A stretch of 62,438 nucleotides of DNA, taken from NCBI GenBank assembly GCA_017511535.1, contig JAFWJS010000043.1:1-62438 (forward strand). The letters run 5' to 3'. The DNA is from Eubacterium sp. (GTDB lineage Bacteria > Bacillota > Clostridia > Peptostreptococcales > Anaerovoracaceae). The notes under the pieces are model-generated. The model saw only the letters and a program-made list of their open reading frames with translations, was not told the DNA's origin and did not search any database. Each line of letters begins with the position of its first letter. Within the stretch, counting starts at the first letter, position 1. The translations under genes were made by a program, and so were the position numbers. Shown here piece by piece: positions 3,673 through 50,670 of this stretch.

Positions 3673-6561
3673 GTGAGATTCTGGAAGAAACAGGAGTCAA
3701 ACGGAAAACCACAGCGTAGAAAGAGCGTGATCATCCTCCTTATTCTGGCGGTGATCATGCTTCTTTTCCTTGCATCCGGTTTTTTCACAGACTGGATGTG
3801 GTTCGGCGAGGTCGGATACACGAGCGTATTCATGAAGGGGATGATCACCCAGTTACTGATGGGGATCCCCGTTTTCGCCGTGGTTTTCCTGATCACGGAT
3901 GTTTATCTCCGTATGATCAAAACAAGATATTTCGCAAATGTGCGGTCTGACGTCGAGCCCGACAGGAAGAAGCTCTCCATGCTGACCAACGCCGCAGCAG
4001 CGGCTTTCGCTTTGCTGGTGTCGTACATCACGGCGTCGTCCATGTGGTACGACGGCCTGATGTTCTTCAATGCGACGCCGTTCAGCGTCAAAGACCCCAT
4101 ATTCCATCACGACATATCATTCTATATATTCAGGTATGAATTCCTGAAGGATCTGAACGCGCTCCTTATCACGGTCACGTTCCTGTACTTTGCATTGACG
4201 CTCGGATACTACTGCCTCCTCATAGTTATGAGAAAGCCGCTTGTATTCGAAGAATATACGAACGAAGCGCCGGCTGGGCAGGGACCGTTCGATGATACGC
4301 CGCTTGGAAAGAAGTTCGGCGACTTCGCCGGCCAGGTCGGAGACAGGATACCGAACGTGAGATCGTTCAGGCGCTTTTCAAGAGCCAATTCAAGCGAGCT
4401 CTTCGAATCAGCGTCCAACCAGCTGGTCATACTGGGAGTGGTGTTCTTCCTGCTTCTGGCGTTTGACTTCACGCTCAGGCAGTACGATCTGCTTCATATC
4501 CATCTGGGAGTAGTATATGGAGCAGGTTTCACAGCAGCCACGGTAGTATTGTGGACTTTCCGCGTGCTCGCCGTGCTCGCCGCGGCTGGAGCCGTAAGTA
4601 TCGCTTTGTTCCTGAAGAAGAAACAGTTCAGGAAGATCGCGCTGATACCACTTCTCATGGCAATAGTCGCAGGGGCGGGCATCCTGGGGAGCATCATAGT
4701 CCAGAGCTATATCGTGTCGCCGGACGAGCTCGACAAGGAGTCGAAGTACCTCAAGAGGAACATCGAGTTCACACAGCTTGCATACGGTCTGAACGATGTG
4801 GACGTCAAGGCTTTCAGCTCCGCGAACGACCTGGACGCCAGGGCGATAAGCGACAACAGCCAGACGATCTCCAATGTGAGAATAAACGACTACGACCCTG
4901 TCAACACGTTCTACAACCAGACACAGAGCATCAGGCAGTATTACACGTTCAACGACGTAGACGTGGACAGGTACATGATAGACGGCGAGCTTACGCAGAC
5001 ATACCTCGCCGTGCGTGAGATAGACGACAAGAAGATAAGCAACACATGGCTTAACCGCCACATAAAATACACTCATGGGTACGGCGTCACGCTTTCCAGA
5101 GTAGATACCGTTACCGCGAGCGGTCAGCCGGACGTACTCATAAAGAACATCCCGCCGGAGTCATCGGTAGATACGATCTCGGTCAAGCAGCCGCGCATCT
5201 ACTTCGGCGAGATGACGAACGACTATTCGCTCGTGAACACGAACGAGGATGAGTTCGACTATCCGGACGGAGACAAGAACAAATATACAAGATATGACGG
5301 CAAGGCGGGAGTAAGGCTGGGTCTGTTCGCCCGCATCATGTTCGCGGTCAAAGAGAAGAGCCTGAAGCTCCTCGTTTCCACGAATATAACGGGAAAGTCA
5401 CGCATCCTGGAGAACCGCAACGTCATAAAGCGTGTGAGCAAGATATTCCCGCACCTGAAATATGAGCAGGATCCGTACTGCGTCGCGGTGGACGGCAGAT
5501 TGTACTGGATAGTCGACGCGTTCACTACAAGCAGGCATTATCCGTATTCAGAGCCGTATTCCGGCTTCGTCGGGGGCGACAATTATGTCAGGAACTCGGT
5601 GAAAGTCATAGTCGACGCGTACGACGGAACGTGCGACTTCTATATCGTAGATGATGAAGACCCTATCGCGAAGACGATGGAGAAGATATATCCTAAGCTT
5701 TTCAAAGAGGGTAGCGAGATGCCTGAAGAGCTGAGGAGCCATATCAGGTACCCGAGCGATCTCTTCAGGATCCAGGCGCAGATCTACACAAGATACCACA
5801 TGCATAACGTGAAGGTGTTCTACCAGCAGGAGGACATGTGGGATGTCGCTGATGAGATGTACGGGACTGAAGAGCGCGAGATGACCTCGAACTATTATAT
5901 AGTCAAGCTGCCTGGAGAGAAGGACGCGGAGTTCATCAACCAGATCCCGTTCACGCCTAAGTCTAAGCAGAACATGACGGCGCTCATGATAGCGAGAAAC
6001 GACGGAGACGATTACGGGAAGCTCGTACTGTACAAGCTCCCTAAGAGCAAGACTGTATACGGGCCGATGCAGGTAGAAGCGCAGATCGACCAGAACACAG
6101 TGATATCACAGGACTTCTCGCTGTGGAGCCAGGCGGGTTCCAAGTACAGCAGAGGAAACATGTTCGTTGTTCCGATCAATGATTCGCTCCTGTATATCGA
6201 GCCTGTATACCTTGAGGCTTCCAACTCAGCGATACCTGAGATGAAGCGTGTAATAGTCATGTATAACGACAGGATCGCGTACGAGCCTACGCTCGGCGAC
6301 TGTCTTGAAGAGTTGTTCGGCGTATCAGGCGGTACAGTGACGAGCAGGACGGCAAGACAGGATGACGGTTCAGATAACGGTAAGGATGACGGCAAGGCAG
6401 ACAAGAAGGACAGCAGCGAGGTGAAGTCTTCATCCGGCTACGCCAAAGCGGCGCAGGAAGCATACGATAAGGCGCAGGAAGCCCTTAAAGATGGAGACTG
6501 GGCTGAATACGGCAGATATATGGACGAGCTCGAGAAGTATCTAGACAAGCTTGCTGAGTAA
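3673..6561 (+). CDS. UPF0182 family integral membrane protein
   Basis: The 962-residue product has the UPF0182 (COG1615) layout: about seven membrane helices in the first 330 residues, then a large extracytoplasmic domain with family-like features such as RNIEFTQLAYGL, FYNQTQSIRQYY and RLYWIVDAFTTSRHYPYS. A charged Ser/Asp/Lys linker and a helical C-terminal segment end the protein. Family members are about 900-1,000 residues and their function is not established. The start is GTG at 3673, seven bases after an AGAGGAA site. A GGGGC/GCCCC hairpin at 3644-3660 sits just ahead of that site and could affect translation. The preceding gene ends 33 bases upstream, so co-transcription is likely. Confidence 0.9.
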   Translation: MRFWKKQESNGKPQRRKSVIILLILAVIMLLFLASGFFTDWMWFGEVGYTSVFMKGMITQLLMGIPVFAVVFLITDVYLRMIKTRYFANVRSDVEPDRKKLSMLTNAAAAAFALLVSYITASSMWYDGLMFFNATPFSVKDPIFHHDISFYIFRYEFLKDLNALLITVTFLYFALTLGYYCLLIVMRKPLVFEEYTNEAPAGQGPFDDTPLGKKFGDFAGQVGDRIPNVRSFRRFSRANSSELFESASNQLVILGVVFFLLLAFDFTLRQYDLLHIHLGVVYGAGFTAATVVLWTFRVLAVLAAAGAVSIALFLKKKQFRKIALIPLLMAIVAGAGILGSIIVQSYIVSPDELDKESKYLKRNIEFTQLAYGLNDVDVKAFSSANDLDARAISDNSQTISNVRINDYDPVNTFYNQTQSIRQYYTFNDVDVDRYMIDGELTQTYLAVREIDDKKISNTWLNRHIKYTHGYGVTLSRVDTVTASGQPDVLIKNIPPESSVDTISVKQPRIYFGEMTNDYSLVNTNEDEFDYPDGDKNKYTRYDGKAGVRLGLFARIMFAVKEKSLKLLVSTNITGKSRILENRNVIKRVSKIFPHLKYEQDPYCVAVDGRLYWIVDAFTTSRHYPYSEPYSGFVGGDNYVRNSVKVIVDAYDGTCDFYIVDDEDPIAKTMEKIYPKLFKEGSEMPEELRSHIRYPSDLFRIQAQIYTRYHMHNVKVFYQQEDMWDVADEMYGTEEREMTSNYYIVKLPGEKDAEFINQIPFTPKSKQNMTALMIARNDGDDYGKLVLYKLPKSKTVYGPMQVEAQIDQNTVISQDFSLWSQAGSKYSRGNMFVVPINDSLLYIEPVYLEASNSAIPEMKRVIVMYNDRIAYEPTLGDCLEELFGVSGGTVTSRTARQDDGSDNGKDDGKADKKDSSEVKSSSGYAKAAQEAYDKAQEALKDGDWAEYGRYMDELEKYLDKLAE

Positions 6562-17252: not shown

Positions 17253-17281
17253 TTGACATATAATATGCTGCGTGATATATT
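17253..17281 (+). promoter_or_regulatory. Strong sigma-A promoter for the small TA-like locus
   Basis: A perfect TTGACA at 17253-17258 and TATATT at 17276-17281 have a 17-base spacer. It points away from the aminopeptidase gene and drives only the short region before the convergent helicase gene. Confidence 0.75.
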
Positions 17282-17378
17282 TTTTCTACCAGAAGGAAAG
17301 CAGGGGTGATTGGCCTTTTCCGTTATCGCGGTTTGCCGCCTGAAGGGGGCAGGCGAGATGACCCGAAAGGAGGATGCC

Positions 17379-17657
17379 ATGATGAGAGTAACGATCTCAT
17401 ACGCCAAAGGGGTATTGAGGATCACTATGATTATCAGGGTACGAAAAGACCACCCCGTAGTGATTGCGAACCAGGGTGGTCTAACCATCCAAAGGCCGAT
17501 CGCTGAGCGATTCCTTCTGGCTTTATTATATCATCACATCAACAGAAAGCAACACAGATCGCAGCAGATACTGAATAAATGCTGTGTCATCCGAGCAGAC
17601 TCATCAGCTCGTCCTTTGTCAGGCTCGCGAGTGATTCGGATGTGCCTGACAGGATAG
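17379..17657 (+). CDS. Candidate small toxin-like ORF of a type I TA-like locus
   Basis: A perfect AAAGGAGG at 17366-17373 lies five bases before ATG 17379 (a second ATG follows at once), which argues strongly that this spot is translated. The first 22 residues, MMRVTISYAKGVLRITMIIR, are short, hydrophobic and beta-prone with a basic end. That resembles the small VTI/ITI-type membrane peptides of Clostridia type I toxin loci. The frame then stays open for 92 codons through a terminator-like hairpin and into the antisense side of the helicase gene, which is odd; the natural end may have been lost by mutation near 17445. The 5' leader of about 90 bases is structured. The assignment rests on locus geometry, not on a recognised family. 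Confidence 0.4.
   Translation: MMRVTISYAKGVLRITMIIRVRKDHPVVIANQGGLTIQRPIAERFLLALLYHHINRKQHRSQQILNKCCVIRADSSARPLSGSRVIRMCLTG
17443..17517 (-). ncRNA. Candidate antisense RNA antitoxin (about 75 nt)
   Basis: On the minus strand a promoter at 17525-17552 would start RNA near 17517. A GC-rich hairpin (17482-17474 pairing with 17455-17447, AGACCACCC/GGGTGGTCT) followed by TTTT would end it near 17443. The RNA would be fully complementary to the 3' half of the facing small transcript. This matches the convergent geometry of RatA/TxpA-like loci. Confidence 0.45.
17487..17525 (+). terminator. Hairpin that may end the small plus-strand transcript
   Basis: An interrupted stem with CCA, AAGG and ATCGCT pairs AGCGAT, CCTT and TGG around a one-base centre and is followed by CTTTATT. 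The U-run is weak, so confidence is moderate. Confidence 0.35.
17525..17552 (-). promoter_or_regulatory. Antisense promoter facing the small ORF
   Basis: Read on the minus strand, TTGCTT (17552-17547) and a perfect TATAAT (17530-17525) are separated by 16 bases. They sit between the helicase stop and the hairpin of the small locus, pointing into the small transcript. Confidence 0.5.
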
Positions 17658-50530: not shown

Positions 50531-50539
50531 TATATTGTC

Positions 50540-50652
50540 CTTATCAAGAGTGGCTGAGGGAATAGGCCCTTTGAAGCCCGGCAACCTGTGAAGGTCGTAA
50601 GATCCGTCAAGGTGCCAAGTCCTACAGATCCATATGGATCTGAAAGATGAGG
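50540..50652 (+). ncRNA. SAM-I (S-box) riboswitch
   Basis: The conserved elements occur in order: CTTATCAAGAG, GGCTGAGGGA, GGCCCTTTGAAGCCCGGCAAC, GGTGCCAAGTCC, CAGA and GAAAGATGAG. This binds S-adenosylmethionine and turns off transcription of genes for methionine and SAM synthesis. It is followed by an intrinsic terminator and metK, consistent with transcriptional control. Confidence 0.96.
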
Positions 50653-50670
50653 AGTGATATCGAGTATGTC

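Follow-up and report, generated by a model that had tools for sequence, protein, structure and literature searches.

Whether 300 bases of DNA, in which a short reading frame is met by a facing promoter, encode a toxic peptide kept silent by an antisense RNA is the question raised by this locus. It lies in a stretch of 62,438 nucleotides (hereafter the window), which corresponds to contig 39 of a Eubacterium sp. genome (1.38 Mb, 88% complete, 55 contigs). On sequence comparison, the 300-base stretch is a member of a family of tiny loci, in which the gene of a predicted short, cationic and beta-strand-like peptide is opposed by a facing antisense RNA gene.

To begin with, the elements claimed in the initial annotation (both promoters, the ribosome site AAAGGAGG, the ATG at 17379, a GC hairpin followed by TTTT and an antisense RNA of about 75 nt) were all found in place. 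On the forward strand, the putative promoter of the peptide mRNA (17253-17281) comprises TTGACA (17253-17258), a 17-nt spacer and TATATT (17276-17281), with a TG ahead of the -10 box; it was detected by the promoter scan, and its TTGACA recurs in another copy of the locus (C17, see below). As judged from the -10 box, the mRNA would start at about 17287-17289 and carry a 5′ leader reaching to 17378, whose 5′ arm (CCAGAAGGAA ... GGCCTTT, 17289-17318) is a copy of the antisense RNA 5′ end and could pair with positions 17491-17520 of the same mRNA. The ribosome binding site (17366-17373), which has similar counterparts in relatives, is placed five bases upstream of the ATG at 17379, while the start in relatives matches the second ATG of the window (17382) or one codon earlier. 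The frame contains the conserved peptide core MRVTISYAKGVLRITMIIRVRK (17382-17447) and, as previously noted, remains open beyond the hairpin at which relatives stop, running to 17657. On the minus strand, the antisense promoter (17525-17552) is formed by TTGCTT (17552-17547), a 16-nt spacer and TATAAT (17530-17525), and the putative antitoxin RNA of about 75 nt would extend over 17444-17518, both ends being predicted. This RNA would fold into stem-loop 1 (17498-17512) and a terminator stem-loop (17448-17481) that overlaps the end of the peptide frame, with a stem of GACCACCC/GGGTGGTC and TTTT at 17447-17444.

The promoter and terminator motifs on their own are weak evidence, as simple scans did not place them beyond chance: two promoter sites were found at the locus versus 1.4 +/- 1.0 in shuffled sequences, and no terminator was called there under the strict rule of the scan. 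Folding, on the other hand, was better than in shuffles on both strands (z of -3.4 for the sense and -3.3 for the antisense strand). The locus is considered real because it is conserved, both in copies within its own genome and in 57 loci of the bacterial family. A DNA search of the own genome revealed a second full copy on contig 17 (C17), 77% identical to the window and with different neighbours, and a further, partial copy at the edge of contig 48 (C48). In the C17 copy, the sense promoter and the ribosome site are followed by a frame of 30 codons (MRLTISYHKGVLRITMSIRARKGHPCDLTE) whose stop codon falls inside the hairpin, and the antisense promoter TTGCNN-16-TATAAT is kept, with the same spacing, in the window, C17 and C48 copies. 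Moreover, a covariance model built from the antisense unit of these three copies matched a fourth one on contig 21 (C21), together with two true relatives (L020 and L021) and a false one (L022). In C48 and C21, the antisense unit is the sole recognizable part.

These last two copies merit a description of their own. At the edge of contig 48 (L003, 1-232), where no similar peptide was recognized on reading, the window-type antisense unit faces an unrelated open frame of about 47 codons, which includes cysteine and has its stop in the hairpin (by eye); perhaps the unit serves there as the antitoxin of another partner, or the arrangement is due to chance. On contig 21 (L025, 1501-1601), the peptide gene has lost its beginning, but the antisense unit remains and may still act in trans on the other copies.

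Outside this genome, the window DNA used as a query gave no match in 98 relatives, nor did the C17 peptide in the 16 other genomes of the genus, and more distant relatives were reached solely by a DNA pattern, the covariance model and peptide profiles. The pattern, searched in a collection of 84,980 named species genomes, retrieved five matches, each judged a member on reading: Emergencia timonensis (placed in the Anaerovoracaceae), an uncultured Eubacterium, two clostridial genomes and a rumen Peptostreptococcaceae genome. Among these, L036 and L040 are records that the covariance model had matched as well. Of 393 genomes of the order, 22 were matched by a profile of seven peptides, the matches in G109 and G507 being judged chance. 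A profile of 29 peptides, applied to 349 genomes of the bacterial family (probably the Anaerovoracaceae), yielded 57 loci, spread over 42 genomes from 9 of 92 genera, the own genome included. With this profile, no other genome of the 17 in the genus of the window matched, and among 391 genomes of the class and 388 of the phylum (E up to 0.001) the only match was again the own genome. All 57 loci were read by eye, and two chance matches (L060 and L061) were excluded from every count. Collections of viral contigs, phages and plasmids contained no relatives detectable by peptide or by antisense DNA, both of them short queries of limited sensitivity; a looser pattern gave ten matches in viral contigs, which were all rejected as chance on reading. 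The family of loci is apparently restricted to one bacterial family.

Regarding their surroundings, the member at L036 is located just upstream of MobC-like and relaxase-like genes (6009-6365 and 4632-6002; translations read by eye), which suggests that mobilisable elements may carry some of the copies. Furthermore, paired members less than 500 bases apart were seen in G136:C139 (6227 and 6689; L080 and L100) and in G357:C3 (12827 and 13162; L101), the first member of the latter pair being damaged. Such side-by-side members would be useful for testing cross-talk.

A typical locus reads, from 5′ to 3′, promoter, leader, ribosome site, peptide, hairpin, second stem-loop and facing promoter. The best upstream sense site starts with TTGAC in 20 of the 29 loci with a call, and the distance from the -10 box to the peptide start ranges from 70 to 133 nt (26 loci). 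The peptide follows the pattern M-x-R-[VI]-T-I-[ST]-x-...-[LVI]-R-[VI]-T-I-x-[IV]-K-K, with 18-30 residues in typical loci; its KK codons provide the T-run of the terminator on the antisense strand, and the hairpin arms overlap the codons that come after them. The homologs do not vary freely, as the ribosome site, the frame, the antisense promoter and the terminator are all conserved, and the type I geometry of convergent, 3′-overlapping RNAs, which had been put forward from the window alone, is strongly supported by this comparison.

The ratio dN/dS ranged from 0.16 to 0.43 across four subfamilies (20 loci, from two to nine in each), with values of 0.10 and 0.31 for the core in the two subfamilies where it was taken, which indicates that the peptide frame is translated and constrained. 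The loci therefore share with type I systems a short peptide gene that has a ribosome site and is under coding constraint. In 60 strands picked by their motif, the hydrophobic moment was 2.73 at 170 degrees versus 0.71 at 100 degrees (1.11 +/- 0.65 when shuffled). Among 30 peptides, V, I and T accounted for 39% of the residues, and the net charge lay between +4 and +8. Their mean hydropathy over the best 15 residues averaged 0.76 with a maximum of 1.16, a level that is low for a membrane helix. With low hydropathy and beta periodicity, no alpha-helical transmembrane segment was recognized, and the peptide looks like a cationic amphipathic beta-hairpin rather than a membrane helix. Of the small, beta-prone membrane toxin suggested in the initial annotation, the beta-prone character is thus borne out by the amphipathic strand pattern, while the membrane part was not borne out by the hydropathy; the peptide might nonetheless act on membranes, or else by self-assembly. 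No match at the family cut-off was obtained in Pfam, NCBIfam (two peptides only), PHROGs or PDB sequences, and the best Pfam E-values, for the 23 of 29 members long enough to scan, were 0.079 and 0.17, to unrelated families.

In 25 of the 57 loci, for example L043 and L055, the leader contains a separate frame that starts upstream of the peptide gene and is preceded by a very strong ribosome site of its own (GGAGGTGA; L086, the same record as L039, was left out of this count). This frame overlaps the peptide frame or runs into it, and all three phases are represented (5, 12 and 8 cases). In the absence of a conserved phase, a fixed mok-like role was not supported.

As for the antisense side, the facing promoter reached a mean score of 10.2 over 57 rows scored by one rule, compared to 8.0 +/- 1.0 in 680 control segments of the same loci; these rows hold one record twice (L039 = L086) and exclude L094, which is without the usual stop. 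The facing -10 box appeared 50-82 nt past the stop in 53 of the 57 rows. In 51 sequences (L062 left out), canonical pairs amounted to 94% in stem 1 versus 79% in shuffles (maximum of 1,000 shuffles, 82.5%) and to 99% versus 91% in the terminator, with changes on both sides in four of five and six of six pairs, respectively. The middle stem was weaker (73% vs. 55%), one of its columns being common to the terminator. The shuffles leave relatedness in place, and all these stem-pair figures are supporting values, not probabilities. Moreover, pairs were counted on named stems because folding the whole-family alignment gave a poor consensus. Sequence, conservation and covariation agree on an antisense gene that overlaps the mRNA and has its own promoter and terminator, as in type I systems. 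In Rfam, the window gave a weak, sub-threshold alignment to ctRNA_pND324 (17.2 bits vs. a cut-off of 45), and 20 relatives gave nothing besides tRNAs. Elsewhere in the window, a SAM riboswitch was detected on the forward strand (50538-50653, 87.7 bits).

The predicted mRNA and the antisense RNA of a given locus share a repeat over their first ~40 nt. The shared start is CCAGAAGGA...GGCC in the window, and GTCAGGA...CTCGACC, TCAAGAGGA...GACC or TAGGAACAGAA...GGTTAGC elsewhere. As the antisense RNA, alike at its 5′ end, complements the 3′ part of the mRNA, the two ends of the mRNA can pair with each other. In 26 loci, the match score with the own partner was 14.3 versus 9.1 +/- 0.5 when partners were permuted (a score computed with a misplaced antisense start for L066), and the duplex energy was -47.3 versus -35.2 +/- 1.2; L050, L052, L062 and L069 were kept out of these tests because of an unclear sense promoter or a contig edge. 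The own partner ranked first in just 12 of the 26 loci (16th for L057), as siblings share sequence, but permutation within four subfamilies, covering 23 of the 26 loci (L038, L042 and L049 belong to none), equalled the own pairing in 0 of 5,000 cases. Of 52 antisense rows, 51 had enough upstream DNA. In 46 of these, where no promoter had to be chosen, the duplex of the leader with its own 3′ end reached -39.4 kcal/mol versus -29.7 kcal/mol permuted (0/5,000), and the own leader was better than the median of the others in 40 loci and no better in six. The same 0/5,000 was obtained for the own 5′-3′ match in 17 held-out loci. The remaining five, without a leader, were taken as the control and showed a locus-specific match at most weakly (own -23.4, permuted -21.2; 194/5,000).

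When transcripts were folded from the sense start to the facing promoter, which were their assumed limits, the ends were paired in 25 of 26, the exception being L042. A masking of the ribosome site by this pairing was not supported, given that the equilibrium folds showed no consistent change: the unpaired fraction from ribosome site to start was 0.37 in the full transcript, 0.33 without the 3′ end and 0.36 without the 5′ end. The pairing may serve to protect the ends and to pose a barrier, which the perfectly matched antisense RNA would overcome. No terminator of the mRNA was identified.

The suggestion that the window copy might be decayed gained support from the position of the stop codon: on reading, 54 of the 56 other loci have it ahead of the hairpin or inside it (exceptions, L050 and L094). 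With no stop at the hairpin, translation in the window would run into the 3′ region, so this copy is probably damaged, unless the assembly is in error. Damage to the peptide gene with intact antisense promoter and hairpins was read in six of the 57 loci (L054, L096, L102, L104, L108 and L110), where the first part is lost or an early stop has arisen; C48 and C21 of the own genome represent two more antisense-only cases. In addition, L048 and L066 are without the usual start codon. The reverse loss was seen once, in L090, which keeps the peptide and has a poor antisense promoter, and both sides are altered in L094 and in the first copy of L101. As the search used peptides, these counts are biased against antisense-only loci. 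Such an asymmetry would be expected if the peptide were harmful and the antisense RNA protective.

Taken together, the window locus likely belongs, probably as a damaged copy, to a new module of the type I toxin-antitoxin kind that is apparently confined to one bacterial family. Sequence comparison shows the layout, the coding constraint, the antisense structure and the locus-specific 5′-3′ complementarity. The same RNA circuitry could, in an unlikely alternative, regulate a small peptide that is no toxin but a signal, a bacteriocin-like or a regulatory peptide, which would agree with the lack of a family or structure match and with its dissimilarity to a membrane helix. However, no export or processing genes were noticed in three neighbourhoods read by eye, and several copies per genome, a scattered presence, a copy beside mob-like genes and the retention of the antisense half where the peptide half is lost all fit a toxin-antitoxin module better.

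The two remaining alternatives concern the inverted repeat itself and bear on how its arms differ. A total of 88 G-U-compatible transitions, 36 opposite transitions and 135 transversions were counted between the arms (2,115, 1,486 and 4,935 in permuted pairs), and pairing was stronger on the sense than on the opposite strand in 23 of 26 loci (p = 2e-5), both of which speak for RNA pairing and not for a DNA operator. An operator bound by one regulator at both promoters would explain why the repeat lies just downstream of each -10 box, but it is rendered very improbable by these two biases and by an arm of ~30 nt that varies from locus to locus. Similarly, a small, MITE-like mobile repeat, with promoters in its inverted ends by coincidence and an incidental frame between them, would account for inverted repeats at both ends, several copies per genome and the differing neighbours of the window and C17 copies. 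It is nevertheless very unlikely, because the repeat begins within the predicted transcribed part, the arm differences favour G-U pairing on one strand, the peptide codons are under constraint, and the arms differ between subfamilies yet match within each locus.

Returning to the toxin-antitoxin reading, we infer that both RNAs exist, that the mRNA reaches the facing promoter, that the peptide is toxic and that events occur in the following order. One promoter would give a short message encoding an amphipathic, cationic beta-hairpin peptide, which in typical loci has 18-30 residues. From the facing promoter, a structured antisense RNA of ~75-85 nt would be made, spanning the last part of the frame as well as the 3′ untranslated region. 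The initial ~40 nt of the mRNA, imitating the antisense 5′ arm, would pair with its own 3′ end, partly through G-U pairs, and close the transcript into an inert, stable form. The antisense RNA, as a perfect complement of the mRNA 3′ end, would invade this closed transcript, and the pairing of both RNAs would be expected to lead to cleavage by RNase III, as for RatA, keeping the peptide off. With even chances of being right, a broader proposal is that these loci define a new class of RNA-silenced toxin, combining a beta-hairpin peptide with an mRNA closed by a G-U-weakened imitation of its antitoxin, and with copies kept apart by locus-specific co-evolution. In the shortest members of such a class, with 18-19 residues, the place of a membrane helix would be taken by two RITI-like strands plus KK, and the peptide would probably self-assemble or disrupt membranes as a beta-sheet. 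If this is true, beta-strand peptides of 18-30 residues under such RNA control would widen what type I toxins can be, and the family would offer natural minimal beta-hairpins for study. It would also supply an example of an mRNA that mimics the antisense RNA directed against it, with a specificity readable from compensatory changes in 46 loci. Because they are so short, these genes are likely to escape annotation.

Among the papers listed in literature searches, none described such loci in its title or at the beginning of its abstract. Holin-like Hol_Tox peptides are encoded by short genes with overlapping convergent RNAs in Firmicutes; here, no Pfam family match was obtained among the 23 scannable members. 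With TxpA/RatA of Bacillus subtilis and CD2517.1-RCd8 of Clostridioides difficile, these loci share convergent genes and an antisense overlap of the toxin mRNA, located at its 3′ end in the case of RatA (PMC8167048, PMC6563280). However, those toxins have 59 and 50-53 residues, respectively, and a predicted membrane segment (PMC8167048, PMC6563280), whereas the peptide described here is shorter (18-30 residues in typical loci), beta-strand patterned and without a curated-family match. More generally, an alpha helix is common to the membrane-associated type I toxins listed in one source, where the table legend also mentions a beta-sheet marking (PMC8309996).

The Fst/par system (RNA I/RNA II) resembles these loci in its convergent RNAs with repeats at both 5′ ends (PMC8167048), but its repeats are direct and Fst is an alpha-helical membrane peptide (PMC8309996). 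The repeats found here are inverted, so that the two RNAs begin alike and self-pairing of the mRNA is possible; an Fst-like repeat system was rejected on this ground, and no Fst-family match was found. Finally, hok/Sok and aapA/IsoA share a long-distance 5′-3′ pairing of the toxin mRNA (PMC6733600), which is seen here in sequence and predicted folds. In aapA, this pairing hides the ribosome site until 3′ trimming frees it, unlike the present folds, which do not mask that site, and the 5′ arm found here reproduces that of the antisense RNA itself. With no curated match and no helical membrane segment, the family was not assigned to any named one, the comparison with TxpA having been made through family databases. 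As far as sequences can tell, its layout comes nearest to that of TxpA/RatA and its mRNA closure to that of hok and aapA.
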